Source: Sediminibacterium sp.
Lineage (GTDB): Bacteria > Bacteroidota > Bacteroidia > Chitinophagales > Chitinophagaceae
Assembly: GCA_017537025.1 (NCBI GenBank)
Contig: JAFWCB010000009.1
Coordinates: 1-64,000, forward strand
Length of the DNA: 64,000 bases
Reading direction: 5' to 3'
The notes beneath the pieces are model-generated. The model had not been told where the DNA came from and did not search any database. It saw nothing but the letters and a program-made list of their open reading frames with translations. This document shows, in pieces, positions 119 through 17,567 of the stretch (its first letter is position 1; every line of letters starts with the position of its first letter). The translations under genes and the position numbers were made by a program.

Positions 119-313
119 TGCCACCAACACTTAAATATACGAACTCATAATGAATTTAAAGAGCCTGTTTCAACGTAAAATTTGTGCACTTTTGGGGTTG
201 TTCCGCGTATTATTCGAATATCAGTTCCCGCCTCTATCCGCACCAAGGTGAGACAACAGCCGGTGGGCGATATTCACCAGCTCTGCTTTCGCAAATACTT
301 TTGTTGTGCGGCA
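119..313 (-). repeat. attC-like site 1 (array left end)
   Basis: On the plus strand it opens with CCACCAACACTT and closes with TTGTTGTGCGGC, 7 nt before the stop of the metallo-hydrolase gene. The first half (126-239) is nearly identical to the first half of site 16 at 16628-16763. The pairing between the two ends is weaker than in the central sites, so the assignment leans on the shared half and on position. Confidence 0.55.
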
Positions 314-319
314 GTGCAA

Positions 320-1192
320 CTACTTATTATTTTTTTCTATTCTTACAATTCTGTCTGTTACTTTCGGGAATTTAGATAAAACCAGTGCATCATGTCCCGG
401 AATAATAAGGTTGCTATCTGACACTAATCTTTTCATTCTTTTCATAGCATTTACATATCCTTTCGGATCAAACGTAATTGGTATTGGAAGTAAATGTTCC
501 AGATTATAATAATACCAAATATTATCTGAAGCTATAATAGTCTTTCCCGATACTCCATTTACTAAAACGTACTGCGATTCATAGGTGTGCCTTGATCCTA
601 TAAAGACTCTTATACCTGGAATAATTTCAATGCTGTCACCTTTCACCAAAGTTAATTTACCCTCGGTGCTTTTTTCAATAAGCTTAGAGACATCTTTTTT
701 ATTTAGCCCAACTGTTACTCCATTTTTTTGCCAGGCAGTATTAACGAAGTAGTGAAAATCGTCTTTCTGCATCCACACCATTGCGTTTGGAAAAAGGTCA
801 ATGCCGCCTATGTGGTCAAAATGCGGATGTGTTATAATTAAATCAGTAATGTCTTCCGGATTTATATTAATCTCTTTTAAAACAATATCTGGTCTTATAT
901 AATTATTAAAAAAAGGATATTGAGCCGTGTCAGTAAATCCTGCGTCAACTAAAATTATTCTTCCGTTGTTTCCCTTGAGCAACCAAACCATTGCATTTCC
1001 TGTTATGCTATCATTTGCTTTTGAGCCAACTGCAATTTCGGAAACAGGTATTTTATCGTTGCCAGTATACGCAAGGGCAAAAATATTATAAGTATTATTT
1101 TGTCCAATGGCACTAAAATGGAAAGCAGTGAGTAAAGTGAGCAAGAAAATTTTTATCAAGTCAATTGGCTTGCGGAGCTTACCTTTTTTCAT
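320..1192 (-). CDS. Exported metallo-beta-lactamase-fold hydrolase
   Basis: Predicted zinc hydrolase of the MBL superfamily, 290 aa when started at the ATG at 1192, which puts a positively charged start and a hydrophobic signal peptide ending near AIGQ at the N-terminus; the longer open frame to 1402 runs through the upstream attC-like site and is not coding. The metal motif HPHFDH is at residues 122-127, followed by a later His (SRHTY), an Asp (ASDN) and the C-terminal PGHD. This pattern is shared by lactonases, beta-lactamases and other MBL enzymes; the layout is closest to the AHL-lactonase-like group, but the substrate cannot be read from sequence. Secreted or periplasmic. It is the leftmost complete cassette gene and has no visible promoter of its own. 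Confidence 0.85.
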   Translation of the reverse strand: MKKGKLRKPIDLIKIFLLTLLTAFHFSAIGQNNTYNIFALAYTGNDKIPVSEIAVGSKANDSITGNAMVWLLKGNNGRIILVDAGFTDTAQYPFFNNYIRPDIVLKEININPEDITDLIITHPHFDHIGGIDLFPNAMVWMQKDDFHYFVNTAWQKNGVTVGLNKKDVSKLIEKSTEGKLTLVKGDSIEIIPGIRVFIGSRHTYESQYVLVNGVSGKTIIASDNIWYYYNLEHLLPIPITFDPKGYVNAMKRMKRLVSDSNLIIPGHDALVLSKFPKVTDRIVRIEKNNK

Positions 1193-1237
1193 ACACGTTT
1201 TTTTATGTTTTGTCTGTGAAAAAGTCATGCAGGCATT

Positions 1238-1385
1238 GCCGATAACATTTAAATTTAAGATACTCTCCACATCCCTCCAAAAACAAATAATCAATCCCGG
1301 TAAACAATTCAGCATTATACTTTTTGTATTGTCGGTGCGCCTAGGCGGACAAAAGCCGCCTTTTGTAAAGCCACTTGTTGTGAAC
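1238..1385 (-). repeat. attC-like site 2
   Basis: Plus strand opens GATAACATTTAAAT and closes CCACTTGTTGTGAAC, 10 nt before the next gene's stop. The interior carries the palindrome CGCCTAGGCG followed by an arm pair AAAAGCCGCCTTTT. The opening half resembles sites 1, 16 and the half site at 17.47 kb. Confidence 0.6.
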
Positions 1386-1394
1386 TTGTACTCC

Positions 1395-1817
1395 CTATTC
1401 AAATTTCAAAGTAAAAATTAGTATTTCATTAGTCTCTTTATTCCAGGTTCTTTCGATAAGAAACATGTTAAGAGGACGTCCATTATTGTCGGAGTGAAGC
1501 TTTAATACATGATTTATACTTAATGAAATTATTTTTTCGTATGATGGGCCTCCAAAGGCTGAAAGACTATTTTCAGTAGTTACCTGTAAATGGTAAGAAT
1601 AACTGTTACTTTTGGTGTCAGTAAAATATTTGATATGAAGTGTGTCAGTGGCTTTTAATGAGCTTAGTTTCAATGAGACAATATTCTGGTTTCCTGCCTT
1701 ATTAAACTCTTCAGTTTTTTCTTTGTTTAAATAAACTTGCCAATAGTCAAGTAAAATAGGCTGACAATTTTTAAAAGCTGCAGGATATAAGAATAAAACA
1801 AGAAGATAGTTTAGCAT
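1395..1817 (-). CDS. Small exported protein of unknown function
   Basis: 140 aa. The first 14 residues (MLNYLLVLFLYPAA) form a hydrophobic leader, so export is likely; the rest is polar and looks beta-rich, with no motif I recognise. The end of the frame (HVLKLHSDNNGRP then LNMFLIERTWN) does not match a family known to me. Single-gene cassette: its stop lies 10 nt from site 2 and its start overlaps the opening of site 3. No promoter or close Shine-Dalgarno sequence is visible. It may be a periplasmic binding or immunity-type protein, but that is only a guess. Confidence 0.6.
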   Translation of the reverse strand: MLNYLLVLFLYPAAFKNCQPILLDYWQVYLNKEKTEEFNKAGNQNIVSLKLSSLKATDTLHIKYFTDTKSNSYSYHLQVTTENSLSAFGGPSYEKIISLSINHVLKLHSDNNGRPLNMFLIERTWNKETNEILIFTLKFE

Positions 1818-1971
1818 AACAGTTTTTTACTACAGTTAGGATAGCGCACATCAAACTCGCATTTAAGCAGAGGCGGAAGTTGAAAATATGTTATTGAAAA
1901 TATTCAAAAAAGTTGATTAGCAAAAAACAGATGAGCAACTGCGTTTCAGCCCGCCGACTTTACTTACATAC
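1812..1971 (-). repeat. attC-like site 3, degenerate
   Basis: Opens GCATAACAGTTTT on the plus strand and closes GACTTTACTTACATAC; the closing GTT is replaced by CTT, compare GTTACATGAC in site 4. Inner arm pairing is poor. It is called mainly from its position between two single-gene units and because the stop codon of the next gene lies inside it. Confidence 0.35.
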
Positions 1972-2464
1972 TTTGTTTGCGGCTGGCGTGTCTGTCTTTG
2001 ATGATTTTTAAGTCTTGTTTTTTGTCAGTCAGCCACAAATGGATTTCATAAAAATCATCGCCATCAAGACCATCTTCACTTAGTTTGTCTAGGTTGGCAT
2101 AATAAATCCTAGTTCTATAAATTCCATTTTTAAGCTCAATCCTTTTTGCATCTGGGAAATAGTCCGTACAACCCGCAATTACAATTTTGCCTGAACTAAC
2201 TTCTATGTCGCACTCGTTGATTTGGTCAATAGAGTTCACATCGTTTAGAAATTCTGGTTCAGTTTCAAAAATTTTTATTGTGACAGGAACATTCATATTT
2301 CTGGCAGTCCCAACTCCAAAAGCTCCGTCAGTCGTCGCTAACAGTATATCATTTGCTTTCTTTGTCCAACTGTCACTTAAATCACCGTTTACTTTTTCAT
2401 CTTGAATGTAAAATTGAAAGTGGTCTGCAAAAAGTTCAAATTTAATTTCATTTGTAGCTACCAT
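1964..2464 (-). CDS. Cytosolic protein, possibly ComJ-like
   Basis: 166 aa, no signal peptide, acidic. The N-terminal half has a short beta strand with DHFQFYIQD, then a W-x-n-A helix and DGAFGVGTARN, then a beta-rich tail ending in HLWLTDKK. The order 'HQF/FQF ... W ... A..DGA ... RN' recalls ComJ (Nin), the Bacillus inhibitor of the DNA-entry nuclease NucA, from memory of that family; no search was possible. If right it could be an immunity-type protein for a nuclease, though no nuclease gene neighbours it. Otherwise it is an orphan. The stop codon sits inside attC-like site 3. Confidence 0.6.
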   Translation of the reverse strand: MVATNEIKFELFADHFQFYIQDEKVNGDLSDSWTKKANDILLATTDGAFGVGTARNMNVPVTIKIFETEPEFLNDVNSIDQINECDIEVSSGKIVIAGCTDYFPDAKRIELKNGIYRTRIYYANLDKLSEDGLDGDDFYEIHLWLTDKKQDLKIIKDRHASRKQSM

Positions 2465-2500
2465 ATCATAGTCAATGCCTTTTGAGTTTGTTATAGCTTG

Positions 2501-2701
2501 CCGCTTACGTCCATCGGCTTATTGTTCGGTGGGCAATTGTATGACGTCAAGCCGATAACCGCGCTGATTAGAATTATTGATGATGAAATTAAGAATTAAT
2601 CATGAATAGTATTCAATCTAACCGAACTATTACCGAAAAGTGATTTGGCATGAATTGATTCAAAGTCCAGCCTCATTCACGCCAAACCGCTGTTACATGA
2701 C
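2501..2701 (-). repeat. attC-like site 4
   Basis: Opens CCGCTTACGTCCATCGGCTT (AAC changed to TAC) and closes AAACCGCTGTTACATGAC, 2 nt before the lipoprotein stop codon. Its loop contains GATTAGAATTATTGATGATG, which is repeated almost exactly in site 5. Confidence 0.55.
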
Positions 2702-2702
2702 T

Positions 2703-3269
2703 TTATTGTTCGATTACGTATTTGCCTTTTTTGTCAAACTTTATGCTAACTCCAACACCTACGTCAGTCACAGGAATCGAAATACTGTAATGGATTTGGA
2801 TATTATCGTTGTTTAATTCAAGAGTTGGATAAAGTAGCGTCGCATATTTGTTCAGTGGTGTGCCCAGGGTGTCAAGCAAACTTTTAAATGTCGCTTTAGT
2901 AATATGCTTTTTGAAAACAGTGTCTTTGTCAGCAAGCACTGTCAGATCAGAGGCAAAATTGTGGGTAGTGAAGTCTTTGTTTGTGTCAAAGTTGTACTTG
3001 GCTGGAACTACTAACTCATTGTCCATAGTGCTAAAGTGATGAAAGATAACTTTGTACTTCTTACCATTGTCAATAAATGATGTGTCAATAAGGATAGGCT
3101 TTTGATAAAGCGAGATGAACTCTTTCCGAAAATCAACTTCTTGTTCGTGGTGTTGTATCGTGTCAGTCAGTGATATCGATTTTGTCGTGTCAAACTGCTT
3201 GTTCGTTTTTTTTGAACCTGTAGAACAACTGAGAAGTGTCAAGAAGAAAAGAAAAACTGTAAATCGCAT
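2703..3269 (-). CDS. Lipoprotein of unknown function
   Basis: 188 aa with an N-terminal hydrophobic stretch and lipobox LLSC at residues 12-15, so a lipid-anchored envelope protein. The remainder contains short charged segments and ends in a beta-strand-like GVGVSIKFDKKGKYVIEQ. I do not recognise the family. It is the only gene between sites 4 and 5; its stop lies 2 nt from the site 4 core and the 15 nt downstream of its start are AT-rich. Nothing in the sequence indicates a function. Confidence 0.65.
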   Translation of the reverse strand: MRFTVFLFFLTLLSCSTGSKKTNKQFDTTKSISLTDTIQHHEQEVDFRKEFISLYQKPILIDTSFIDNGKKYKVIFHHFSTMDNELVVPAKYNFDTNKDFTTHNFASDLTVLADKDTVFKKHITKATFKSLLDTLGTPLNKYATLLYPTLELNNDNIQIHYSISIPVTDVGVGVSIKFDKKGKYVIEQ

Positions 3270-3284
3270 GATGTTTTTATAATG

Positions 3285-3486
3285 GTATGTAAGGTTTATC
3301 AGCTTTGCGATTGGCTGAATTTCTGTATTCCGTCAGCCAATACAAAAGCCGATTAGAATTATTACTGATGAAATTAAGAATTAAAGTTGATTAAAGAATG
3401 TCAAGTCGATAGCCGCTACTCATAAATAATTTTGTTACCGATTGCTCTTCCATCAGCCAGACTATTGCAAAACTCCTGTTAGCCAC
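3285..3486 (-). repeat. attC-like site 5
   Basis: Opens GTAAGGTTTATCAGCTTTGCG and closes AAACTCCTGTTAGCCAC. The inner arms TTTGCGATTGGCTG and CAGCCAGACTATTGCAAA pair imperfectly. The loop shares about 30 bp with site 4 (3351-3384 against 2563-2600). Confidence 0.65.
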
Positions 3487-3487
3487 A

Positions 3488-4141
3488 TTAATCAATTTGA
3501 ACGCCAATCTTTTTTGCTAAGCCTTGAACATACTCTTGATGCGGCTTATGGTCGCTGCGCAAGTGGTAATATTCCTTTAATAGTTTTTCTCCAGCTTGGC
3601 GGTTCGATTTCAATTGAATAAGAGCAGCATTTAGTTTCCCTATTCGAGCATTCAAGTTTGGAATACTCTCATCCTGCAAACTTTCAATTGTTTTTTCTCT
3701 GCTTGAAAAGTGCAAAAACCAATCTACAGCTTGCTCATTCACTCCACTTATTATTTCATTGGCAACGTCCATGTAATTCTCGCCAACTGTCCACCAATGG
3801 TCTTCACTTTTGGTAAGTTCAGCAAGTCGCACTCTGATTTGACAGATGTATTCTGGAATGAAGTTCTTTTCCAAAGGCTTGTTAGTAACTTCATAAATAT
3901 CAGAGACAAAAACGCCAAGATTAACAGCAAACTGTCCATATAGGCTTTCACGAATGCTAGGAATAACATAATTGCCCCCAATAGGATACTCTCCAGATTG
4001 AAAGTTAATTACATGCACAAGCCCATTTTCTACAACTTTATTGTGAGTTCTACCTTTCTTTTCAAACCCTTGAACCTTTAATTCCTTGTGAACGATGCTT
4101 TGTAGCTTGTTCAGAGTCTTTGTATATTCTGATTGTGCCAT
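3488..4141 (-). CDS. DUF4304 family protein
   Basis: 217 aa, cytosolic. The segment GFEKKGRTHNKVVENGLVHV followed by INFQSG near residues 24-50 is the signature opening of DUF4304 proteins; the C-terminal third is helical. Function of the family is unknown; members are common as single accessory genes and immunity-like neighbours in Bacteroidota and Firmicutes. It is the only gene between sites 5 and 6; the stop lies 2 nt from site 5 and the ATG lies 14 nt before site 6. Confidence 0.75.
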   Translation of the reverse strand: MAQSEYTKTLNKLQSIVHKELKVQGFEKKGRTHNKVVENGLVHVINFQSGEYPIGGNYVIPSIRESLYGQFAVNLGVFVSDIYEVTNKPLEKNFIPEYICQIRVRLAELTKSEDHWWTVGENYMDVANEIISGVNEQAVDWFLHFSSREKTIESLQDESIPNLNARIGKLNAALIQLKSNRQAGEKLLKEYYHLRSDHKPHQEYVQGLAKKIGVQID

Positions 4142-4154
4142 GGGGAAACTTGTT

Positions 4155-4341
4155 GTGGCTAACGTTACTGCTTAGGCGAAGGTTCGGAAAAATATTCCAC
4201 AGCTTGCTTGGCCATCGCGGAACGGCAAAGCTAAAGCCAAATTACTGAAGTTTGGTTATCCCGCCAAGGCAGGGTAACAGCTGAAGGGCCATCCGCCTAG
4301 GCGGACAAAAGCTCAGCTTTTGCAAAGACGGTGTTGGCTGC
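4155..4341 (-). repeat. attC-like site 6
   Basis: Opens GTGGCTAACGTTACTG, with CTTAGGCGAAGGTTCGG as first arm, and closes CTTTTGCAAAGACGGTGTTGGCTG. The loop has GCTTGCTTGGCCAT, AAAGCCAAATTACTGAAG and the palindrome CCGCCTAGGCGG, all shared with other sites of the array. Confidence 0.75.
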
Positions 4342-4445
4342 TGTTCTTTAATTACCATTAAAGCTGAAATCTTACATTCTGGACAATAATAATATTAAGT
4401 TTCAGAAAATTATTTAAATTAGTTAAAGTAGACATATCTTAAATT

Positions 4446-5387
4446 ATGCGAATTTTAAAATTTAGCAGACTGTTGCTGGCTTTTGGCGTCATTGCCCTCG
4501 CTATTTTTTATATAAAGTTGAATCAGGGTAGTATTGATAAAAGTCGATTTATTATCAGCTTAGCTAAAAAACCATTAATTAATTTGAAAGGAGATTATTC
4601 CGGGTATATAAATGTTTCAGATACTAGTATATCAGTAGATGAGTCAGTTAGTTTTGAAAAAAAATCGCTTATTGACTCGATTGCAAAAAAAATGATATCA
4701 GGAGGAGTTGGTTATGGTGGAGCTCTAACTAGGGCTGATACTCTATTAATAGCTAACTCTTATATGGAACAATATATGAAAGAGTTAAATAAAATTGGCT
4801 GGATTAATCAGAATATATCAAACGAGACAAAAATATTACTTAGAAGGAAAACACTACAAAAACTTTCAATCGGAATTTTCGAAAAAACAAAAAGATTTAC
4901 AATCCCTATTTTGTTTACTAATCAAAATGAAATACAGGAAAGGGCTTACAATATCGGCTACATTACTAAAAATGATTCCATTGGTGTATTGAGATACAAT
5001 TGCAATGTTGACTATTTTTTATCAGACAAATCAAAACTTTTACTTAAAGCCAAGGAGGGTGTAATACAGAGAATATTTCCTGAGGCAAAAAAGACTAGTA
5101 TTATGGATAAAGAAAATAATGAAGTGTATTCTTTTAAAATAAAATCAATCGGCAGTATAGTCGATGAGTTAGATTTAGCAACTACTACTATTAATATTGA
5201 AGTAATTAATCCTATGTATAACAATTTTCTTGGTAGAATCATACAGGATTGGTCAATAACTCAAATTTTAAGTTGGACAATTATTACTTTACTCGGGCTT
5301 TTTGCAGATAAAATCAAGGAAATCTTTTTAAAACCTATCATTGAAAAAATATTTCACAAAAAAATACTTCCCAAAATATTTAGATAA
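4446..5387 (+). CDS. Two-pass membrane protein, reverse-oriented cassette gene
   Basis: 313 aa. A membrane segment at residues 8-24 (LLLAFGVIALAIFYIKL) and another near 270-290 (ILSWTIITLLGLF) enclose a large, lysine- and isoleucine-rich domain, probably extracytoplasmic; a short basic tail follows. I do not recognise the family. It is the only plus-strand gene in the array and sits between sites 6 and 7, so it must carry its own promoter; the 104 bp upstream are very AT-rich but contain no clean TAnnTTTG box. Reverse genes in integron cassettes are unusual and often self-expressed (toxin-antitoxin, defence). Base composition is lower in GC than its neighbours. Confidence 0.65.
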   Translation: MRILKFSRLLLAFGVIALAIFYIKLNQGSIDKSRFIISLAKKPLINLKGDYSGYINVSDTSISVDESVSFEKKSLIDSIAKKMISGGVGYGGALTRADTLLIANSYMEQYMKELNKIGWINQNISNETKILLRRKTLQKLSIGIFEKTKRFTIPILFTNQNEIQERAYNIGYITKNDSIGVLRYNCNVDYFLSDKSKLLLKAKEGVIQRIFPEAKKTSIMDKENNEVYSFKIKSIGSIVDELDLATTTINIEVINPMYNNFLGRIIQDWSITQILSWTIITLLGLFADKIKEIFLKPIIEKIFHKKILPKIFR

Positions 5388-5429
5388 GTACTATTTTCTC
5401 ATACGAATAAGTTTATAAAAGCAGAATAG

Positions 5430-5593
5430 CAGCCAACGTCCGTGCTTGGCGAAGGTTGCGGAAGAGTTCCTGCCGCTTGCTTGGCCACTACAGACTCGAT
5501 TAGTTAAAGCCAATTTACTGAAGCCTGGTCAGAAATCCAACAGCCGATGGGCCAAGTACAAAAGCCAACTTTTGCCAAGCAACTTGTTATGTG
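5430..5593 (-). repeat. attC-like site 7
   Basis: One of the clearest sites. Opens AGCCAACGTCCGTG with arm TGCTTGGCGAAGGTTG and closes CAACTTTTGCCAAGCA then ACTTGTTATGTGC; the two arms match at 14 of 16 positions. The TAA stop of the next gene (5587-5589) lies within the closing GTTATGTGC. Confidence 0.8.
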
Positions 5594-6312
5594 CGGTTAT
5601 TTATTAAAAAATGAATTATACTAGAAGTCAGGTTAACAATCATGTCAGTCTCTTTAGGATTTACTGCATCATTATGTTTCACATATGTGTTTTGATAGGT
5701 GCCATAATAGTCATGAAGCTTAATAATCATATTTGTTAACTCCTTAGATATTTTAAGTGATTTCAAATGATCGCCTAATGCGGAATTTTGATTTTCTATC
5801 GACTTGGTATTCGAAAGAATCTCTTTTAGTAATGTTTCATAACATAGTCTGAGATCGTCGAGGACACTACGCTCATCTAACTTTTGATTAAGCTTTTCAA
5901 CCGCTCGCTGATAAATTGCTCCAACGGTAGGAAATTTTGCTAATAACTTTAAGTTGCTATGAACTAAGTCAATATTTACCTCGGGCCTTAAAATTGCAAA
6001 ATCAAACTCGGAATTTAACTCTTTAATTTCTTGTTCGGTGAATAAAAGATATGTAGCAAATTTTATATTATCATCACATTTTTCAGGTTCGTTTTTGTAG
6101 CGACAGCCTTTTAAATGCTTATCATACTCCTCTCTAATATTTTTCCAAATTTCATATAGGAATATTAATTTCCCTTCTCTTTCTGTATAATCATAGAGTT
6201 TTAGTGTTAGAGCATTTTTAAATCTTTCAGCAGCATCGGTATATAGTTCCCAGTCTCCGCCATAATGATAGAATTTTTGAGCTGCTTTTCTTATAATTAC
6301 TTCGTAGTTCAT
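5587..6312 (-). CDS. Cytosolic helical protein of unknown function
   Basis: 241 aa from the ATG at 6312 (MNYEVIIRK); the open frame continues upstream but only through the attC-like site 8. No signal peptide or membrane segment. The protein looks almost wholly alpha-helical, with a CRYKNEPEKC pair of cysteines near residues 78-87 and many Lys/Glu/Leu. I cannot place it in a family. Single-gene cassette whose stop codon TAA is part of the site 7 core, a very tight fit that is typical of integron cassettes. Possible roles in defence or stress are untested guesses. Confidence 0.6.
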   Translation of the reverse strand: MNYEVIIRKAAQKFYHYGGDWELYTDAAERFKNALTLKLYDYTEREGKLIFLYEIWKNIREEYDKHLKGCRYKNEPEKCDDNIKFATYLLFTEQEIKELNSEFDFAILRPEVNIDLVHSNLKLLAKFPTVGAIYQRAVEKLNQKLDERSVLDDLRLCYETLLKEILSNTKSIENQNSALGDHLKSLKISKELTNMIIKLHDYYGTYQNTYVKHNDAVNPKETDMIVNLTSSIIHFLINNRT

Positions 6313-6325
6313 AATTGCAATAATC

Positions 6326-6503
6326 GCACATAACGTACGCGCGTTTACGCAGTAAGAGAATAGTATTACTCCTTTAGTTCGCACGCATGTAGCTACAGTA
6401 AATTAGCGAGAATATTGAAGCTAAACAAACATATTATTATAGAATTTCAAATTATGTTGTGAAACTGAGTTACTCTTATTGCATAAGCGCATTTTGGGTG
6501 GCT
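6326..6503 (-). repeat. attC-like site 8
   Basis: Opens GCACATAACGTACGCG and closes GCGCATTTTGGGTGGC, so the closing GTT is lost. The inner arms are long: GTTTACGCAGTAAGAG against CTCTTATTGCATAAGC, with three mismatches, which supports the call despite the worn core. Confidence 0.65.
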
Positions 6504-6506
6504 ATT

Positions 6507-7610
6507 TTATTTTTTTGTCATTGGGTTATCATTTAGTATCTTTCTTAACGTTCGCAATAGTTTTGGGAATTCATCGTGGTTGGTCAAAATAATAATTGTA
6601 TTGTCTTTGGTCAAATTTCTTTCAATTATTGCAGCATAACCAGGCCAAGCTCCTGTATGGCTAACTTGAAACCCGTAATCGTTATTTATCAAAAACCACC
6701 CAAACCCATATTCCGTTTTACTTCCGTCATTTAATATTGTTGGTTCAAAAATTTCTTTTCTACTTATTTCAGATATTATTTTACTTGAGTATAACGCTCT
6801 GTCCCATTTAAGTAAATCATTTGTCGTAGAAATAACAGAACCATCGCCTTGTACTCCGTCAAGCCATACTACTATTTTAGTTGGTGCATAATTGTCAGGT
6901 AAAATAAATTTCTTCGTGGAGTCATCATAAACATAACCAAGCACGTAATGATTTATTTTCTCGGGTTTATATCTGCCATTATGCACAAATGTAGATTGCA
7001 TTTTGAGAGGTCTGAAAATATGGTTTTCTAAAAATTCTTTGTAGCTCTCTCCCGATGCCTTGTGAATAATTGAAGCTAATAATGCATAGCCAGTATTGCT
7101 ATACTCAAATTTTGAATTAGGCTCAAAGAGTAATTTTGGTTTACGGATAGAAAACAAATTTATAATATCGCCGTTGGTTGCGATTTTACTTTTATCCCAC
7201 AAACTGTCCATTAATTCAATATAATCAGGTAAACCACTTGTGTGGCATAGCAAATGCCTTATAGTTATTTTGTCGTATACTTTAAGTTCTGGTATATACT
7301 TCGAAATTGGGTCATCATAGTTTAACTTGCCTTGTTCTTTCAATTTAACTATAGCAAATGCAGTAAATTGCTTTGAACAAGAAGCTAATTCAAAAACAGA
7401 ATTGATATTCAATTTTTCTTTCGTTTCTTCATTTGCATAACCAAAGTTTTTTTGATAGATTGGTCGACCTTTTTCGGCAATTAATATGTTTCCGCTTAAT
7501 TGCCCTTTAGTATAAAAGTCATTGAACAGGCTGTCAATTCTTTGAACTTTGTTTTGTCCATATATAAAGTTGCTTAACGATACAGCCAAGAAAAATAGTT
7601 TATATCTCAT
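6507..7610 (-). CDS. Exported serine hydrolase, class C beta-lactamase fold
   Basis: 367 aa. A signal peptide ends near residue 19 (IYGQ). Penicillin-binding-fold motifs are complete: SCSK (Ser77, Lys80), YSN at 170-172 and HTG at 318-320; GLPDY after a conserved HTS is also typical. Members of the Pfam Beta-lactamase family include AmpC, esterases and D-aminopeptidases, so the motif set shows the fold and the catalytic serine, not antibiotic hydrolysis; HTG in place of KTG is common in esterase-like members. Acts in the periplasm. Single gene between sites 8 and 9, stop 4 nt from site 8. Confidence 0.85.
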   Translation of the reverse strand: MRYKLFFLAVSLSNFIYGQNKVQRIDSLFNDFYTKGQLSGNILIAEKGRPIYQKNFGYANEETKEKLNINSVFELASCSKQFTAFAIVKLKEQGKLNYDDPISKYIPELKVYDKITIRHLLCHTSGLPDYIELMDSLWDKSKIATNGDIINLFSIRKPKLLFEPNSKFEYSNTGYALLASIIHKASGESYKEFLENHIFRPLKMQSTFVHNGRYKPEKINHYVLGYVYDDSTKKFILPDNYAPTKIVVWLDGVQGDGSVISTTNDLLKWDRALYSSKIISEISRKEIFEPTILNDGSKTEYGFGWFLINNDYGFQVSHTGAWPGYAAIIERNLTKDNTIIILTNHDEFPKLLRTLRKILNDNPMTKK

Positions 7611-10193: not shown

Positions 10194-10213
10194 AATAGAG
10201 TGTTAGATTGGTT

Positions 10214-10352: not shown

Positions 10353-10362
10353 CGTGCTTTTA

Positions 10363-11208
10363 TTAGTTAATTTTCATAAACTTAATATCTACTTTGATGC
10401 GGTCTTTAGTTGGTGTTGGTTTAATTTGCGAAGTGTCTGGTTTACCAGAGGAAATTTTAAAAGGAACGGACGAAGTTGTTACTAAAAGTTCATAATCGTT
10501 CAGTTCACTACCAGATTGATAGTACATATTACCATTTAAATTTACAATTGTGCTTGAACCAGTAATATTGCCCGTAAACTTAGAAAATTTTGAGTAAGTC
10601 AAGCGATTAGCCATGACTCCATTTATAATTGCAAGGTTTGGCAGAACTTTAAAATTATAAGAGGTTGCGTCATCTTCAAGTCTTTTCTTATCAATAAATT
10701 CACCCTTGGGTGCTGAGCTCAGAATTGTTTGATAGATTATATGCATTGATTGGTCATCCTGAATACCTACTGTAACATTATTAACAATTTCTGCATTTGA
10801 TTTGATTCCTTTTTCAATATATGAGTCAAAAAAGGGTTTATTATTCACTAACTCGCTAGTCAATTTTTCATATCCACTTAGGTAGTTAAAGTCGCCAATG
10901 AATATTAATTTAGTCTTGTTATTTGAGGTATCAATTTGAACAAGTTTTCCTACAAGGAATGGAGCTGAATTAATGAAGGTTAAGGGTAATTGATACCCAT
11001 TAATATCAATATTTGGGAGTTTTGTGTCAAAGCTAACTTTAGTTAATTTATTAGTGATAGCTTTATTTAGGACATCCACAGAAAGAGAATCCGCATTTGC
11101 AATTGGAGTTTTAGGTTTTTCTTCCTGTTTGCCTCCGAATATATTATGGAAAAAATGGCAACTAGAAAGGCTGAAGCTGATTGTCAAGAGAAAAAAAAAT
11201 TTTTTCAT
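10363..11208 (-). CDS. Lipoprotein of unknown function
   Basis: 281 aa. Lipoprotein signal MKKFFFLLTISFSLSSC with Cys17. The mature part begins with a charged, proline-containing linker (GGKQEEKPKTP) and continues with beta-rich sequence and a proline/threonine stretch near the end (DTSQIKPTPTKDR). It is probably an outer-membrane-anchored periplasmic protein. No family recognised. Single gene between sites 12 and 13, 11 nt from site 12; about 100 bp of AT-rich sequence precede site 13 upstream of its start, enough room for a promoter though none is clear. Confidence 0.6.
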   Translation of the reverse strand: MKKFFFLLTISFSLSSCHFFHNIFGGKQEEKPKTPIANADSLSVDVLNKAITNKLTKVSFDTKLPNIDINGYQLPLTFINSAPFLVGKLVQIDTSNNKTKLIFIGDFNYLSGYEKLTSELVNNKPFFDSYIEKGIKSNAEIVNNVTVGIQDDQSMHIIYQTILSSAPKGEFIDKKRLEDDATSYNFKVLPNLAIINGVMANRLTYSKFSKFTGNITGSSTIVNLNGNMYYQSGSELNDYELLVTTSSVPFKISSGKPDTSQIKPTPTKDRIKVDIKFMKIN

Positions 11209-11306
11209 TGTATAATTTTTTAATGGTGCTTACTCTATTCGGTTTTCAGCATCCCCGGTTTGTTTTATTTCAGTTTGTTCTAAATTTGAATTATCGTCAA
11301 AGCATG

Positions 11307-11512
11307 ACACACAACGTTCAGGGCTTGCCGCAGGGCTGGAATTGTTGCTGTGTCCGCCCGGCAACTGAACCCGATTAAAATTACTGAAGTTGAAGTTAAC
11401 AACTAAAAGCTAAATAGAATTCGGTCAAGCCCGATATTAGCTGATAGTAGTATCCCGCAATTGCGGGATTATTCCGTCCACCAGCATAGCAGCAAACACC
11501 ATGTTAGCAGAT
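11307..11512 (-). repeat. attC-like site 13
   Basis: Opens ACACACAACGTTCAGG with arm GCTTGCCGCAGGGCTGG and closes CCAGCATAGCAGCAAAC then CCATGTTAGCAG. A second perfect hairpin, ATCCCGCAATTGCGGGAT, lies in the loop near 11450-11470. Together with the 5' region of the lipoprotein gene this accounts for the 306-bp gap 11209-11514. Confidence 0.75.
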
Positions 11513-11514
11513 GT

Positions 11515-12003
11515 TTAGTCGTTCTGATTAAATTCGACAAGGTCTTTTATACGAGCTTTTTGGTTCCGATTTAAAAATTTCTTCAGTAACTCTTCAGCTT
11601 TTTCTTTTGTTTCCGCTGCGCAAAGGCAATCTTTCCATTCCAGCGGCGTTTTATCGTCAATCCAAGAAATTCGAACCCTTAAACCATTATCTTGAAACAC
11701 GTCCCCTAAAGCGAAAAAGGTTTTATAGTTGGGAAGTTGTGCTTTAAAACCAAATGTGTTGTACAACGACCTCACTTCTAACTTCTCGACTTTGTACTCC
11801 TTAATATCGTCATCTCTAAATTTTTGTGTTCCAATAGGTCCAGTCACCTTAACAATATCGTTAAAGAAAAGTCGTGTTTCTGGCGTCGGAATACCCTCTA
11901 ATAGCCCAAACCCACTTTTGACTCTTCCATATACTTGGTCATTTCTTGGAAGAAGTAAAGCAGCAAACCAGTTATCGGGCTTATTCCAATCTATAGTATT
12001 CAT
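11515..12003 (-). CDS. Cytosolic protein of unknown function
   Basis: 162 aa, soluble, opening MNTIDWNKPDNWFAALLLPR. A repeated aromatic pattern and a central segment VKVTGPIGTQKF suggest a small beta domain, and the C-terminus has the helix ETKEKAEELLKKFLNRN. No family recognised. Single-gene cassette between sites 13 and 14; its stop codon is 3 nt from the site 13 core. Confidence 0.6.
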   Translation of the reverse strand: MNTIDWNKPDNWFAALLLPRNDQVYGRVKSGFGLLEGIPTPETRLFFNDIVKVTGPIGTQKFRDDDIKEYKVEKLEVRSLYNTFGFKAQLPNYKTFFALGDVFQDNGLRVRISWIDDKTPLEWKDCLCAAETKEKAEELLKKFLNRNQKARIKDLVEFNQND

Positions 12004-12027
12004 TGTCTATTATGAGGTTTGAAAATA

Positions 12028-12232
12028 TCTGCTAACGGTCAGGTATTGCCGAAGTGCAAGGAATAGAATTCCGTCCAGCCCAGCTAACCAATGTTGAGTA
12101 AAGATAAAAAAGTTGAAGATATGCACATAGCTAAATAAATAAGGTCAAGTTGGATATGCAGCTGAGCAGAGTTACTACAGTTGAAACACGGCTTCCGTCA
12201 GCCTGCATTTCGGTAATACCCTTGTTATGTGC
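12028..12232 (-). repeat. attC-like site 14
   Basis: Opens TCTGCTAACGGTCAGG with arm GGTATTGCCGAAGTGCAAGG and closes GCCTGCATTTCGGTAATACC then CTTGTTATGTGC. It separates the orphan gene from the protease-ATPase pair; the remaining 49 bp before the protease stop show nothing recognisable. Confidence 0.75.
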
Positions 12233-12281
12233 ACACCCTTATTCTAATTAAATTTTGAAGTAGGGTTTCGTTCTGAAAAGG

Positions 12282-14819
12282 TTATAATTCTATTTCTTGC
12301 TCTGGCTCAATTTCAACTTGTGCTTCCGCCATAATATTATAGACGTTCATTTGTGCGTCTAATAACTCAAATGAAACACACAAGGCATAATTGGTTTCAT
12401 TTTCGAGATTTTTGTCCCAACCAAAATGACCAATGACTGCAACACTAAATTCTTCTGCAAACTGTTGCGGTTCTATTAATGTCCAACTTTTTTGAGCTGT
12501 TGAATTATTCCTATTAATTCCATTTTCAGTCCACGCAGGATTCTCCCTTATAATCCATTTAATTGAATTAACTACTTCATCAATTGCTCCTGCCTCAATT
12601 ACATCCTCATCAGTTTCCAAATATTCAATAGTTCTGTTTCGGAAACTATTAAAACTTTCGTTGTATTTTGATGATTGCCATTCAAGCCAATTAGATAAAT
12701 ATGAGTGAGAGCCTTTTCGTGTTAATCGGGTTTTTGCAGTAAAAGTTAGAGTTACTTCAACTAAAATCCTGAACTCATTTCCTTCTCCTCTTAATTCCTC
12801 GGGTATTTTCAATCGATAAATGTCAGCTTTTTTGGGGCCAAGTTTACCATTCTGAATAAATGTTATTCGTGACTGAGTATTGTTTAATGCACGGTTTACA
12901 TCCGGAATTCCATAACCATAATGTCTGAAATCATTCAAAGTAGGATTATGAAAGCAGTGTTCAGGTAGTCTTGCACTCTGAATGATTAAGGCCCGATACA
13001 TTTGTGCAGATTCAGTTGGGTGTTCGGCCTGTAACCTTGAAGCGATATAACTTACTTTGGGAGTACTGAATGATGTTCCAAAAGAATCTTTACCAACTGC
13101 ACTTGCCCCATGAAGAGTTGAATTTATTAGTTCCGGCGAGGTAAATTCATTTGTTATAAGTTGATTTGACAATTTATTCTTCATTAAGTCCCCTCCAAAT
13201 TCAACAACATCGGGTTTAATACACCCCCACATTCCCAGCCCTGTTCTTGAAAAAGGAGAAACCTTGTTTTTTCCAGCTAATGCCTTGTAGTCGACATCTT
13301 CATAATCCTCTTTCGCAATGGAGCCAACTGTTATAGCAAAATAGCTTACTCCTGGATTTGCAATTCTTGTTTCTTTCTCATTCAAATAATCTGGATAGTT
13401 TCTTCCTGCTTGTATATGCTCAATTATTCCCATGTTTGAAGGAATTGCTGAGCTAGAATATAGATTTCCAGCAGCAACAATAAAGAGGACATTTTTTTCA
13501 TGAATAAGTTTATCAATGGATGCAGCTAATGACGGCATGTGAGTACCAGTATATGCAGCTTTTTCTGATACAGAAAGATTGAATATTCTAGTTTCAGGAT
13601 AATCAGCAATAATTTGTTCCATCAATTTTGGCTCAAATTTGCTTGTAGAAATTTCGTTTTTCTTATCAAGAATCCTTGCATTTTGAAGAATGCTTGATAA
13701 CTTAATTTGCCCTTTCTTTGGTACTGATTCAGGGTATAAAACCGCACCTGCTACTTTAGTGCCATGGCCGCTGGCCTTCACATAATCAACAGTTGTTGCA
13801 TCTCCATCCACGTATGAACGGGAGTTTGCTGTATCAATTGCTGGTTGAATTAATATATGATTTTCTTGTATTCCACTATCTATGATGCAGACTTTCGTTG
13901 CAGTATTATCCGGAGCAATTATTTCAACTTCATAGTCATAATCAATATTGATGTTTTCATGTTCTAAGTCATACTTAGAATCTAGTTTTACTTCATACAA
14001 ATATTGATAAGTTTGAACTAGGTCTTTTAGACCTTTTCCGCTGATTGAGAGTTTAAAATAGATAGCATCAATTTGATTATCCCAAATTTCATGCAATACA
14101 CCACCGTAGATTTGAATATACTTTTCAATTTCATCTTCTCTTTTTATTTGCTTTTCGTCTCTTTCAATCTGTAATGCTGTTTCAATTGATTTGAATTCAG
14201 CAACTTTTTCCAGAAATTTAGCTTCTGAATCAAAATCTTCCCAATTAGGATATTGCTTCTTATTCGGAATATAGCATGAGACCCCTAGTTGAACTGCATA
14301 AACAACATCAGGTTCTATTGTTTCCCATATATCGCCTAATTCTCCTTTTAATAATTCCCTGACTCGCCAACTTTCATCTGTTATTAATTCCCATATCTGT
14401 GCAGCCTTATCTTTTCGTTGGCCCTTTTCATTGATAAAGTCATTTACGTTTTCAAAAAATGCTTGTAGGTTGTCAGTTGAAGCACCTATTATGTAGCCAT
14501 TTTCTTCTTCGGATATTAATTCAATTCCCCAAAGTTTGAAGTTATCTATATCAAAAACTTCTGTATCTATTCTTAAGAAAATTGGTATGTCATTCTCATT
14601 AGGTAAAATAATTCCTTCAGCTTTTTTTGCTTCCTTTAGGGTTCTCCAATTTTCAACAAGTGTATTTGCAGAACTACCTAGATATTGCCCATGATTTTGT
14701 CTGTTCTCTTTGTTTTCGTTTGTTTTAGCTTTTGCCAATTTATCTCTGCTTCCACCACCTTTTGGTTTTGCAGAACCTTCGACTTTGAATGGTAATTTTA
14801 AATGAGGAAATTCGGGCAT
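12282..14819 (-). CDS. ietS: IetS-like subtilisin (S8) serine protease
   Basis: 845 aa, cytosolic (no signal peptide). A basic, Gly/Ser-rich N-terminus is followed by a roughly 270-residue domain and then a subtilase domain with a full catalytic set: Asp314 in CIIDSG, His352 in SGHGTKVAG, Asn452 in AAGN and Ser583 in GTSFSTP. A further C-terminal beta-rich region of about 230 residues follows. An S8 protease next to an AAA ATPase is the IetAS arrangement, described as a plasmid stability (toxin-antitoxin-like) module and listed among anti-phage systems. It follows the ATPase gene by 3 nt, so the two are co-translated. The protease is presumably the effector, held or activated by the ATPase; this is inference. 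Confidence 0.85.
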   Translation of the reverse strand: MPEFPHLKLPFKVEGSAKPKGGGSRDKLAKAKTNENKENRQNHGQYLGSSANTLVENWRTLKEAKKAEGIILPNENDIPIFLRIDTEVFDIDNFKLWGIELISEEENGYIIGASTDNLQAFFENVNDFINEKGQRKDKAAQIWELITDESWRVRELLKGELGDIWETIEPDVVYAVQLGVSCYIPNKKQYPNWEDFDSEAKFLEKVAEFKSIETALQIERDEKQIKREDEIEKYIQIYGGVLHEIWDNQIDAIYFKLSISGKGLKDLVQTYQYLYEVKLDSKYDLEHENINIDYDYEVEIIAPDNTATKVCIIDSGIQENHILIQPAIDTANSRSYVDGDATTVDYVKASGHGTKVAGAVLYPESVPKKGQIKLSSILQNARILDKKNEISTSKFEPKLMEQIIADYPETRIFNLSVSEKAAYTGTHMPSLAASIDKLIHEKNVLFIVAAGNLYSSSAIPSNMGIIEHIQAGRNYPDYLNEKETRIANPGVSYFAITVGSIAKEDYEDVDYKALAGKNKVSPFSRTGLGMWGCIKPDVVEFGGDLMKNKLSNQLITNEFTSPELINSTLHGASAVGKDSFGTSFSTPKVSYIASRLQAEHPTESAQMYRALIIQSARLPEHCFHNPTLNDFRHYGYGIPDVNRALNNTQSRITFIQNGKLGPKKADIYRLKIPEELRGEGNEFRILVEVTLTFTAKTRLTRKGSHSYLSNWLEWQSSKYNESFNSFRNRTIEYLETDEDVIEAGAIDEVVNSIKWIIRENPAWTENGINRNNSTAQKSWTLIEPQQFAEEFSVAVIGHFGWDKNLENETNYALCVSFELLDAQMNVYNIMAEAQVEIEPEQEIEL

Positions 14820-14822
14820 ATC

Positions 14823-15818
14823 TTACTTTAAGTAAAGAACGTTTTCGGTTAATGACCTTTCAAGATGTGATTGTAATAATATTTTCTCATTACCAATTAC
14901 AGCAATTTTTGCTGCATCATTTGCAATTTTTACTACAAGAGCTGAGCTAAAGCCAATCATTTGGTCTACAATAATATTCCAATTGATTTCTTTCGCTTTT
15001 TCAATAGAGGAAAGTGTCATTTTAGTTAAACGAAGAATTTCTTCTTTACTAGGCTTAGGCATTTCAATAATATCATCAAATCTTCTAAATAAAGCCTGAT
15101 CAAGTGCATTTTCAATGTTTGTTGTTGCAATTAAAATTCCTTGTGAATTATATTCTTCTAAAAGAGTCAAAAGTATATTCACAACTCTATGCATTTCTCC
15201 AACATCTTGTGAGTTATTTCTTGTTTTTCCAACAATATCAAACTCGTCAAATAATAATACACAAGGGTAATCTTTAATACCATCAAATAATTTTGTAAGA
15301 TTACTTGCGGTTTCACCAAGGAAAGAGGAAATAATTACATCAAAACGGACTTTTAAAAATGGCAACCCTAAATTCCATGCAATTCTTTCTGCACTCATGC
15401 TTTTGCCACAACCAGGAGCACCATAAATTAAAATCTTTTGTCTGTACTGTAAGCCATGATGTGCCAAACGTTCCTTAGCTGCAAACTCCTTTTCTATTCG
15501 TCTAATTTTATCTTCTGTTTCAGATGGGAGAACCATTTCGTGCCTTAGTTCATCCCGATTAATCGTTATTGCAAGGGGGAAATTATTTCTTTTGTCAGTA
15601 GGAATGAGAACGCCATTTGGTAACATTCTTCTTAACTCGCCTCTAAACTTTTGGCTACTAGAAATATTCTTATCAAGAATATATTTCAGCTTTTCAGCAA
15701 GTTTTTCATGACCTTTTTTCTTCTCATCTTCAATGATAAGTGATGCAACTTTGACAACATCATCTTCCTTGTCTCCTTCAATAGAGCGGAATAGCCTTAT
15801 CATTAGGTCTTGATTCAT
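14823..15818 (-). CDS. ietA: IetA-like AAA ATPase
   Basis: 331 aa when begun at the ATG at 15818 (MNQDLMIRLF); 15 extra in-frame residues upstream are discounted. A helical N-terminal part of about 90 residues precedes one AAA module: Walker A GAPGCGKS at 133-140, Walker B LLFDEFD at 188-194, sensor ATTN at 231-234 and an RRFD arginine-finger motif near 245. This is the 26S-proteasome/spastin-like single-AAA type, not a DNA helicase. First gene of the IetAS-type pair. The 190 bp upstream of it, before site 15, are the likeliest place for a promoter serving both genes. Confidence 0.85.
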   Translation of the reverse strand: MNQDLMIRLFRSIEGDKEDDVVKVASLIIEDEKKKGHEKLAEKLKYILDKNISSSQKFRGELRRMLPNGVLIPTDKRNNFPLAITINRDELRHEMVLPSETEDKIRRIEKEFAAKERLAHHGLQYRQKILIYGAPGCGKSMSAERIAWNLGLPFLKVRFDVIISSFLGETASNLTKLFDGIKDYPCVLLFDEFDIVGKTRNNSQDVGEMHRVVNILLTLLEEYNSQGILIATTNIENALDQALFRRFDDIIEMPKPSKEEILRLTKMTLSSIEKAKEINWNIIVDQMIGFSSALVVKIANDAAKIAVIGNEKILLQSHLERSLTENVLYLK

Positions 15819-16010
15819 TTGTTTATTTAAATGTATAAGTGAACAAGTGCAATTACCATGCAAAATAATAAAACACTTTGACTTTTAGTAATTTACAGAA
15901 TTGGAGTAACTTATTACCAGAAATTTTGGTTTTGGCATCTTAAAAATTGTCCAAAATTGAAGAGCTTGATTTTAGTGTCTTACAATTGAAATACGGTTGC
16001 CAAAAGGGTT

Positions 16011-16178
16011 GCACATAACGTCCAAGGCTTTGCGAAGGCTGGGCGGAAATATTCTGTCGCCTACTTGGCCATCCCGCCGAGGCGGGACTAAAGCCAAATT
16101 ACTGAAGCTGGGTCAGAAATCCTAAAGTTGATGGGCCGATTACAAAAGCCCAACTTTTGCAAAGCTGATGTTGTGCAC
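16011..16178 (-). repeat. attC-like site 15
   Basis: Opens GCACATAACGTCCAAGG with arm GGCTTTGCGAAGGCTGGGC and closes GCCCAACTTTTGCAAAGC then TGATGTTGTGCACC. The loop repeats the TTGGCCATCCCGCC..GGCGGGA and AAATTACTGAAGCTGGGTCAG words of sites 6, 7 and 11. With the AT-rich ATPase leader it fills the 365-bp gap 15819-16183. Confidence 0.85.
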
Positions 16179-16183
16179 CGTTT

Positions 16184-16597
16184 CTATCCTACTTCGATAG
16201 CTTGTAAGAGGTCTTGTAAGTCATGTACATTTTGTTTTGCCCTCTCCAATCCTACAAGTGCAATAGTCTTCGCGTTCTCAACATTGTCCATTACAGACCA
16301 TTCGAAGTTAGCTGCTTCCAAATATGTATCTCCGGTAAAGGATTGAACTTTAAGAAGGCTTGCAAATAGGTTACTAATATCCGCAAGATCATAGTGCTCG
16401 ATATTTTTTGGCTCTTTTAAAAATTGAAGAATTGTAGCAAAACTTAGCCCGAGTGCAGGATTGAATTTACTTTGTTTTAAAGCCTCTTCAAACGAGGAAA
16501 TGGCTTCGTCTGCATTTTCGTATTTCCTACCTGTTGTATTCAAAAGCGCAACTATGGAATCATTGCTTTCGATGAAGGCTTCAATTAATTTTTTCAA
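16184..16597 (-). CDS. Small helical protein of unknown function
   Basis: 137 aa, soluble, all-helical by appearance, with ENADEAISSFEEALKQSKFNP resembling a single TPR-like helix pair and a C-terminal NVHDLQDLLQAIEVG helix. No family recognised. Single-gene cassette between sites 15 and 16; the stop is 6 nt from site 15. It could be a partner or immunity protein, but nothing in the sequence says for what. Confidence 0.6.
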   Translation of the reverse strand: MKKLIEAFIESNDSIVALLNTTGRKYENADEAISSFEEALKQSKFNPALGLSFATILQFLKEPKNIEHYDLADISNLFASLLKVQSFTGDTYLEAANFEWSVMDNVENAKTIALVGLERAKQNVHDLQDLLQAIEVG

Positions 16598-16621
16598 AAC
16601 TGTAAGAGTTTAAATATAATG

Positions 16622-16842
16622 GTGCACAACACTTAAATATACGAACTCATAATGAATTTAAAGAGCCTGTTTCATCGTAAAATTTGTACACTTTTGGGGG
16701 GTTAATGTTCGTTTTTTTGGGTTGTTCCGCGTATAATTCGAATATCGGTTCCCGCCTCTATCCTCGCCAATGCATGACAACAGCTGAGAGGCTATCCGCC
16801 TAAGCGGAAAAAGTCAACTTTTGCCTGTGCAATCTTAGATGC
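16622..16842 (-). repeat. attC-like site 16
   Basis: Opens GGTGCACAACACTTAAAT and closes CAACTTTTGCCTGTGCAATC then TTAGATGC (GTT read as CTT). Its first half (16628-16763) is a near copy of site 1's first half, differing mainly by an extra stretch of about 18 bp near 16701. The palindrome CCGCCTAAGCGG is in the second half. Confidence 0.6.
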
Positions 16843-16854
16843 GAGTATAAGTAC

Positions 16855-17394
16855 TCATTTTTTAGAATTATTTGGCTTTCTTTTGACTTTTATTGTCCAG
16901 TAAGTTAAAGAGTCATTTCTATCAGGAATATATTGATGAGCAATCATTGCTGGTATAATAATAAAATCACCTGATTGAAGCTTTCTTTCATTAGCATTAA
17001 TAATTTCTCCTCCATGCCAATTTCGAAATGGTTCTTCATTTGTTTGCTCACTTTTACCTCTCACTTCCTTACCGGTCTTTAATATGCCATGTCCTGAGCG
17101 AATTATAACGATATCGTCCCATTGTTCATGTACTTCAACAAATCCTTCAGCTGTTCTTTTTATTAAATAATACTCTTCACCAGATTGGCCTTTGCCAAGT
17201 AATTGTGGATTACCCAAACTTTGGCCGACTGAAGAGTCATAAAAATTTGTATTTACTATTGAATCTAACTGAACTCTATTTAAAAAAGTTACATTCAATT
17301 GCTCTGGGGAGACAGTAGCAGTATCATTTCTTCCATTACAACTGGTAAAAATATATAAGATACAACTAAATATTATGTATCGATCTTTTATCAT
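16855..17394 (-). CDS. Cupin-domain lipoprotein
   Basis: 179 aa. Lipoprotein signal ending TSC (Cys19), then a small beta-barrel with cupin motifs: HEQWDDIVIIRSGHG (motif 1) near residues 93-107 and GDFIIIPAMIAHQY (motif 2) near 142-155. The metal-ligand His/Glu set is partly present. Cupins of this sort bind small sugars or acids or act as dioxygenases; the substrate is unknown. Envelope-anchored. It is the last gene of the array; upstream it meets the half site at 17466 rather than a full attC-like site. Confidence 0.75.
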   Translation of the reverse strand: MIKDRYIIFSCILYIFTSCNGRNDTATVSPEQLNVTFLNRVQLDSIVNTNFYDSSVGQSLGNPQLLGKGQSGEEYYLIKRTAEGFVEVHEQWDDIVIIRSGHGILKTGKEVRGKSEQTNEEPFRNWHGGEIINANERKLQSGDFIIIPAMIAHQYIPDRNDSLTYWTIKVKRKPNNSKK

Positions 17395-17465
17395 TAATGA
17401 GTTCTTAAAATTTAAAAATATATTTTAATGAGTATGTTTCTTTTTTAAGAGGTCTATTTGCTTGA

Positions 17466-17567
17466 ACCTAACATTTAAAAATACTCGAGTTAGCTTAAAC
17501 CGAAAAATATCAAATCATTGATAATCACTAAAAACACTTTTGCATTTTTGGGGTGTTCCGCGTATTA
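17466..17567 (-). repeat. Half attC-like site (third border-repeat copy)
   Basis: CCTAACATTTAAAAATACTCGAG at the start and TTTTTGGGGTGTTCCGCGTATTA at the end align with the first halves of sites 1 and 16; the middle has diverged. No second half follows. It marks the right border of the array and occupies part of the 361-bp gap 17395-17755, which also holds a palindrome, a hairpin repeat and a heptad tract. Confidence 0.5.

Follow-up and report, generated by a model that had tools for sequence, protein, structure and literature searches.

Integrons built around the tyrosine recombinase IntI are the closest described systems to the locus analyzed here, an array of gene cassettes at the left end of a 64,000-nucleotide stretch of Sediminibacterium sp. 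DNA (GenBank assembly GCA_017537025.1, contig JAFWCB010000009.1, positions 1 to 64,000 of the forward strand; hereafter the window). The attC sites of IntI integrons have an R-box consensus of RYYYAAC/GTTRRRY and a canonical polarity. The integrase carries an additional domain of ~40 residues that includes the I2 helix and patch III. A passage of PMC7790495 reports that the I2 helix both recognizes and docks the extrahelical bases of the folded attC and that its deletion results in complete loss of IntI1 function. Archaeal integrons are described, in an excerpt of PMC9668308, with an IntI that holds the same additional domain, and a section of a review (PMC8618304) counts Bacteroidota among the phyla with integrons.

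What the window shows is very probably a gene-capture system of the integron type, minus its recombinase, from a lineage other than IntI, a reading drawn from sequence comparison. Together with the arrays of its relatives, it resembles IntI integrons in having mostly one-gene units in a row, an attI-like sequence adjoining the integrase gene, exchange at G^TT as read from sequence junctions, R and L boxes, a predicted bottom-strand hairpin with a G after AAC on the bottom strand, complementary R' and R'' ends in each cassette, a toxin-antitoxin-like cassette, and arrays of tens of kb. It differs in the recombinase, which lacks the additional domain and falls in another clade, in the R box, which reads GTTRNNNG and not GTTRRRY, and in the predicted L stems, most of which are free of one-sided bulges. 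By three of these features (no additional domain, a place outside the IntI clade, and another R box) the system is not an IntI integron. Like a CALIN, a cluster of attC sites with no integrase, the window array is without an integrase in the assembly; unlike CALIN, it contains attI-like cores, and its relatives hold a non-IntI recombinase. Like the Xer proteins (NF040815, TIGR02224/02225), that recombinase has a catalytic domain of the same length class, and its nearest solved structures are archaeal XerC-like/XerA proteins; unlike them, it is separate from the host Xer clade, bears a ~110-residue N-terminal extension, and sits at cassette arrays.

It is likely that Bacteroidota hold a second, separate integron lineage, whose recombinase would capture and shuffle hairpin-site cassettes without an I2 helix, at attC-like sites mostly devoid of extrahelical bases. 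If so, single-strand (or cruciform) cassette recombination arose twice, or before I2. A widespread system without this helix, and with most predicted stems free of extrahelical bases, would make the origin of hairpin-site use by integrases directly testable. An extensive network of gene exchange may also escape tools that depend on a canonical R box or on the IntI domain. No description of such a system was found among the matches listed from open-access PMC text, preprints excluded.

Polarity of the array and two levels of pairing

Contig C25, whose left 64 kb make up the window, comes from a genome of 29 contigs (3.19 Mb, 94.7% complete); window base 1 is the contig end. Sixteen sites at window positions 119-16836 enclose 15 units. 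Fourteen units contain a single gene and one (12282-15863) contains two. All units are read on the minus strand except one, the gene at 4446-5387 (+). In a preliminary description made from the DNA letters, the sites, their spacing, their orientation, and the lone two-gene unit had been read in the same way. Along the minus strand, YAACAA marks the opening of a site and CGTTR its close, and the gene stop stands beside the opening core. Since this is the canonical attC polarity, the start of the array is its right end. The minus strand is the top strand of the sites, and the exchange point falls inside the core that had been written as YAACG. This core and the second proposed consensus, a variant of GTTRTGTGC, represent opposite ends of a single kind of box. 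An integrase had been expected to the left of base 1; the polarity of the sites and the loci of relatives place the integrase side at the right instead, and a leftward search was dropped for this reason.

Of the sixteen sites, the eleven from S5 to S15 form a homogeneous class, all on the minus strand, from which the covariance model R1 was built and which it recovers: S5 (3284-3487), S6 (4154-4342), S7 (5428-5595), S8 (6325-6503, with a degenerate R'' core), S9 (7703-7821), S10 (8502-8708), S11 (9563-9733), S12 (10213-10352), S13 (11306-11512), S14 (12027-12233), and S15 (16010-16179). R1 gives its own training sites 75-161 bits, which is not independent evidence. Over the whole genome it finds 30 places at E ≤ 1, 11 in the window and 19 elsewhere; the latter are independent of training and lie mainly near the ends of contigs C23, C29, C22, and C17, with single sites in addition. 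Independent evidence also comes from matches at E ≤ 0.001 in 18 of 61 genomes of the genus, the source genome included. The other five window sites, likewise on the minus strand, depart from the class. S2 (1237-1386), S3 (1847-1984), and S4 (2499-2701) are degenerate and missed by R1. S1 (119-312), of which R1 recovers just the fragment 253-280 (E 4.9), and S16 (16621-16836), which it misses, are not plain attC sites: each holds an attI-like core in its right half as read on the minus strand.

Complementarity in the array operates at two levels. At the first, pairing runs across the gene, between the core that closes one site and the core that opens the next. Hand-picked window cores match at a mean of 5.8/7 across genes versus 2.5/7 within sites, a result that 0 of 200,000 permutations reached, although S3-S2 (0/7) and S2-S1 (2/7) are poor pairs; among the model-set cores, S5 to S15, all ten adjacent pairs are complementary as read from the printed sequences. 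The same holds in 14 arrays on other contigs or in other genomes, where 128 of 133 sites were usable and five were dropped for core gaps: over 95 adjacent pairs, cores match at 6.39/7 across genes versus 3.41/7 within one site, a value that none of 20,000 within-genome permutations reached. A blind test with fixed flanks was weaker (5 of 100,000 permutations; only 4 of 16 genes came first in their own row) because it mixes cores with site bodies. At the second level, the hairpin arms pair within the site. Only 1 of 100,000 permutations of the window arms gave a value as low, and in arm swapping the mean duplex energy was -31.3 kcal/mol for a site's own arms versus -17.5 to -18.7 kcal/mol for swapped arms. 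Cores thus go with the gene unit and arms with the site, which implies that the position at which units have been swapped lies between L' and R'.

The boxes and the predicted fold set these sites beside, and apart from, canonical attC. GTTRNNNG is present at 117 and 123 usable sites for the two R boxes, and GTTRRRY at just 4 of 127 sites for each. The bottom strand is predicted to be more stable in 90 of the 130 sites that show a difference, and G follows AAC on the bottom strand in 124 of 126. Duplex folding of 30-nt arms predicts L stems with a median of 19 pairs; one-sided bulges are absent from 90 of 126 predicted stems, single in 32, and double in 4.

The recombinase of related arrays and the traffic of cassettes

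The arrays of relatives are adjoined by a tyrosine recombinase of ~385 residues. Its surroundings were surveyed for the 20 best recombinase matches in a sample of 298 genomes of the order, up to ~10 kb on each side. On the C-terminal side of the recombinase lie 71 of the 72 sites (102 kb searched), all in one orientation, and on the N-terminal side a single site (162 kb). Every recombinase with at least 2 kb of contig on its C-terminal side (13 of 13) has a site there; the remaining seven are ≤1.7 kb from a contig end. Sites turned up in just 1 of 20 control loci centered on the Xer and phage-type recombinases of the genus, where three sites lie at least 7 kb from the recombinase. The direction of the recombinase gene is a further difference from IntI integrons: it is transcribed in the cassette direction in all 13 testable loci. 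A second geometry was seen in a few others (G199:C9, G286:C28, G355:C1, and G084:C2), in which shorter recombinases occupy the same array end and read away from it. An accessory integrase of the IS91 type was considered for the recombinase and set aside. Annotations of the Pontibacter and SNU WT5 plasmid stretches include no IS91 transposase, but plasmid NZ_CP094530.1 has one ~0.9 kb downstream of the recombinase, with a second recombinase of its own.

Several measures place this protein outside IntI, contrary to the IntI-type enzyme with patch III that the preliminary description had suggested looking for. The four array recombinases scanned reach 157-182 of the 265 bits needed for TIGR02249 (integron integrase), as two-part matches, and the best NCBIfam family of the G027 recombinase is NF040815 (XerA), at 200.6 of the 220 bits needed. 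The distance between the KDR and HxLRHS motifs is 57-61 residues in 44 of 45 array-type recombinases, 100 in 14 of 17 IntI, and 60-66 in 16 of 16 Xer, rows without a motif match being left unmeasured. In a 91-row tree, the 17 IntI rows all group together as a clade (100/100), and the array-type recombinases have a clade of their own that takes in 43 of 45 (99/94), with L124 and L127 outside it; the label covers best matches, including some without a proven array. The 16 Xer rows fall on one side of a branch (100/99) that holds no array recombinases. The tree does not settle the branching order among the IntI, Xer, and array-recombinase clades. A Foldseek ranking with the predicted model of the recombinase lists archaeal Xer/XerA (XerC-like) structures first, followed by IntI4. 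The recombinase would most likely work without the I2 helix because most sites, by prediction, lack the extrahelical bases that I2 reads; the missing helix and the mostly bulge-free predicted stems fit a different way of reading the hairpin.

Behind the recombinase stop of relatives, and directly before the first cassette, their flanks show by eye a junction of the form GCGTAYWTTTAAGTG^TTR. Further repeats, degenerate ones, lie upstream of it in several recombinase flanks, reminiscent of the direct repeats of attI. An attI matrix was built from 14 of 19 printed recombinase-adjacent flanks of other genomes, aligned by eye. G223, G130, and G107 were left out for an unsure alignment, G318 for want of a visible junction, and G033 since its contig ends; one member, G220, scores just 4.7, probably through a one-base misplacement. 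In five arrays, all of them represented in the matrix, the top matrix match is the junction itself. The window, which is outside it, contains two identical attI-like cores on the minus strand at 24.7 bits each, compared to a maximum of 21.4 bits in five mononucleotide-shuffled windows. The first is the 20-mer GTTCGTATATTTAAGTG^TTG at 16627-16646, inside S16, with the exchange G at 16630; the second, at 125-144 with the exchange G at 128, is inside S1. Their position makes S16 and S1 composites, in which the attC-like first half of a site is fused to an attI-like region. The right half of S2 may be a decayed core of this kind, at 15.1 bits, a score that shuffled sequence also reaches. An attI-like insertion point that adjoins the recombinase gene is found in relatives, and the window holds attI-like cores without an integrase. 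About 200 bp of attI-bearing sequence is common to S1 and S16 (77% identity over 195 bp by BLAST, 83% in ungapped blocks), and a short fragment of it recurs at window position 17545 (17533-17572).

Gain and loss of single genes at site boundaries, a point that the preliminary description had raised, were found. L139 (JAACZQ010000007.1) has two identical copies of a 693-bp cassette, one at attI and one within the array, with left junctions in which ...TTTTAAGT and ...ACTCGAAC are each joined to GTTGGCAGC; in G220, a 475-bp unit is duplicated exactly. Ends were mapped for ten matches of ≥88% identity and ≥300 bp, several of them copies of one cassette: 8 of 20 ends fall within 6 nt of the exchange point, where 1% would be expected, and a single end of the 20 lies that close to the other core. 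Cassettes are common to different genera (G060 and G203, 98.8%) and to different families (G327 and G318, 98.4%). Two Chryseobacterium plasmids are 89.7% alike through the recombinase and attI; immediately past the GTT of attI they part, and each continues with different genes. The recombinase of the Chryseobacterium sp. SNU WT5 plasmid is WP_143853951.1. These junctions, of cassette copies and of plasmid divergence, point to exchange at G^TT. With the 95-pair core complementarity, the exact copies, and the attI-like sequence and recombinase beside the arrays of relatives, the view that the window follows the integron cassette plan and is the substrate of a tyrosine recombinase gains good support at the level of sequence.

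In the source genome itself, the cassette start at window base 1 (1-78, minus strand, where the contig end truncates one more cassette gene after its start) stands behind two different attI-like contexts, the second next to a tRNA-Ala gene where contig C21 ends on its right. This repetition would explain why the contig ends at window base 1. Among the plasmids, the one from trout (NZ_CP041688.1, L183:3956-7211) has two R1 sites (E 1.5e-7 and 0.005), and in the related one from rice punch (NZ_CP094530.1, L224) the same attI is followed by other genes. A 5.7-kb array block is 100% identical in two genomes of the genus (L062:14325-20000 and L078:11935-6260), between flanking chromosomal genes of ~88% identity; one block end is near a core, and the other coincides with the limit of the retrieved sequence.

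Proposed mechanism, distribution, and competing explanations

The following mechanism would account for these data. A cassette consists of a gene, or two, with a long attC-like site behind, and both of its ends would bear a cassette-specific inverted repeat of 9-13 bp (GTTRNNNGC...). The site would fold, best as its bottom strand (the plus strand of the window), into a hairpin that displays the R and L boxes. A dedicated tyrosine recombinase would exchange DNA at G^TT between a cassette site and the attI core GCGTAYWTTTAAGTG^TT, which lies just downstream of the recombinase's own gene, and this exchange would excise, insert, and shuffle cassettes. The neighboring recombinase is presumably the enzyme, and its substrate a folded single strand. 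The arrays of the source genome may now depend on a recombinase copy that is lost, unassembled, or foreign.

The system is common in the sampled Bacteroidota. Large searches scored 8-41 candidates per genome with the window-trained R1, so their counts are lower bounds. At E ≤ 1e-4, sites occur in at least 126 of 298 genomes of the order (8 candidates scored per genome) and at least 55 of 247 genomes of the phylum (10 per genome); the recombinase, at E ≤ 1e-60, is found in 141 and 77 of these, respectively. Across the phylum, sites and recombinase occur together in 38 of 247 genomes versus 17.1 expected, an odds ratio of 8.8, and in family f1 of the order sample all 33 recombinase-positive genomes have sites. 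In single-contig genomes the arrays span ~59 kb (G017 C1:1446789-1506002) and ~94 kb (G060 C1:3152541-3246829).

The distribution of IntI bears on the first alternative, in which the window would be the leftover of an ordinary integron (CALIN) and a true IntI, supplied in trans, would move its cassettes. The attI/attC/cassette plan and the G^TT exchange are integron features, and a true IntI is encoded in 70 of 247 phylum genomes. Yet sites are depleted in those genomes (7 versus 15.6 expected). Among 60 genomes, the source genome included, a true IntI exceeds the cutoff in one of the same order, G053 (C40:3295-4542, L013, 428 bits), in which no R1 site was found at E ≤ 1e-4, either genome-wide with 10 candidates scored or in the 28 kb fetched. 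The scarcity of GTTRRRY boxes and the different recombinase that occupies the integrase position in all 13 testable loci also argue against IntI in trans, and we consider this explanation very unlikely.

A number of observations weigh against a dedicated recombinase acting on folded sites. The co-occurrence of sites and recombinase is modest in the order sample (76 of 298 genomes versus 59.6 expected), and in family f1, 24 of 57 site-bearing genomes, the source genome among them, have no recombinase match at E ≤ 1e-60. In the source genome, no such match was found at this threshold, the visible array ends are without a recombinase, and the two tyrosine recombinase family matches both belong to the Xer clade. 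Two large arrays adjoin recombinases that lack the N-terminal part and may be broken, one of 247 amino acids (aa) in G060 (L076:6083-6826) and a 246-aa open frame in G155 (L146:9481-10218). The AlphaFold model of the recombinase is too weak to build on (pLDDT 76.8, pTM 0.46). The mean gap between top- and bottom-strand stability is a mere 1.5 kcal/mol, and 40 of 130 sites favor the top strand. Core matching is weakest in the source genome's own C23 array, at 4.56/7 over 9 pairs. Covariation on a MAFFT alignment showed no excess over shuffles (for paired cells, 162 of 500 were as high), which we ascribe to misaligned arms in that alignment; arm swapping was used instead. Finally, scattered single sites are common across many genomes, the source genome included; the preliminary description had named repeats outside any cassette context as a point against its reading. 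Such sites may belong to single cassettes: at four outlying sites of the source genome, the best upstream start-core matches are 8, 9, 9, and 7 of 10.

Part of this evidence would suit a second alternative, in which resident XerC/XerD or another host recombinase acts on the sites and the neighboring recombinase is a passenger, such as the integrase of a mobile element. The source genome has arrays together with Xer recombinases only, and plasmids and phages carry relatives of the array recombinase; an R1 search of three plasmid stretches gave full-length sites in the first, a weak fragment in the second, and nothing in the third. Against this, position, orientation, and an attI-like sequence directly behind the recombinase are kept in distant families, and the control loci argue against a general association of sites with Xer or phage-type recombinases. 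We judge a host Xer enzyme to be very unlikely. The last alternative, that the repeats are non-recombining intergenic elements such as terminators, miniature inverted-repeat transposable elements (MITEs), or repetitive extragenic palindrome (REP)-like sequences that fell between genes by chance, could draw on the scattered copies in many genomes but is already contradicted by core complementarity that spans genes and not repeats and by exact gene-plus-site copies that end at the core, and is hardly tenable. As a separate observation, a relative of the recombinase stands beside erm(F) on a Flagellimonas plasmid (NZ_CP092416.1, L184:3020-4795), a stretch with no R1 site.

Cassette genes and further features of the window

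From the array start leftward, all genes but one lie on the minus strand. Upstream of the attI-like core at 16630 is a cupin-like gene (16855-17394), with no recombinase at this end, and directly behind the core is a cassette gene of 137 aa without a Pfam family over the cutoff (16184-16597). The sole two-gene cassette follows, comprising an IetA-like AAA ATPase (14823-15815, 261.6 bits to IetA) and an IetS-like subtilase (12282-14819, 210.8 bits to IetS), so that both proteins at 12282-15815 match the ietAS defence system. Three genes without a Pfam family come next, encoding 162 aa (11515-12003), 281 aa (10363-11208), and 151 aa (9738-10193), then a fourth at 8724-9545 and a gene with the domain of unknown function (DUF) DUF6985 at 7847-8482. 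A serine hydrolase gene of the beta-lactamase fold (PF00144) is found at 6507-7610, and the gene at 5587-6312 matches the PADLOC candidate defence model PDC-S32 at 137 bits. The reversed gene at 4446-5387 has no Pfam family. The left part of the array contains a DUF4304 gene (3488-4141), a gene with a weak match to DUF4738 below the cutoff (2703-3269), two genes of 166 aa (1964-2464) and 140 aa (1395-1817) without a Pfam family, and a gene of the metallo-beta-lactamase fold (PF00753 by Pfam; 320-1192). In the C23 array of the same genome, cassette genes encode a nucleotidyltransferase and a HigB-like toxin paired with a helix-turn-helix protein. Such content, made of defence-like pairs, DUFs, and orphans, is usual in large chromosomal integrons.

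An Rfam search of window positions 1-18000 returned two matches up to E=1. One, to a snoRNA at 3264-3310 overlapping the edge of S5, reaches 23.5 bits against a gathering score of 45 and was taken as chance. The other is the DUF805b RNA motif (RF02914) at 11227-11259 on the minus strand (35.9 bits; gathering score 35.6), which lies outside the sites and upstream of the gene at 10363-11208.

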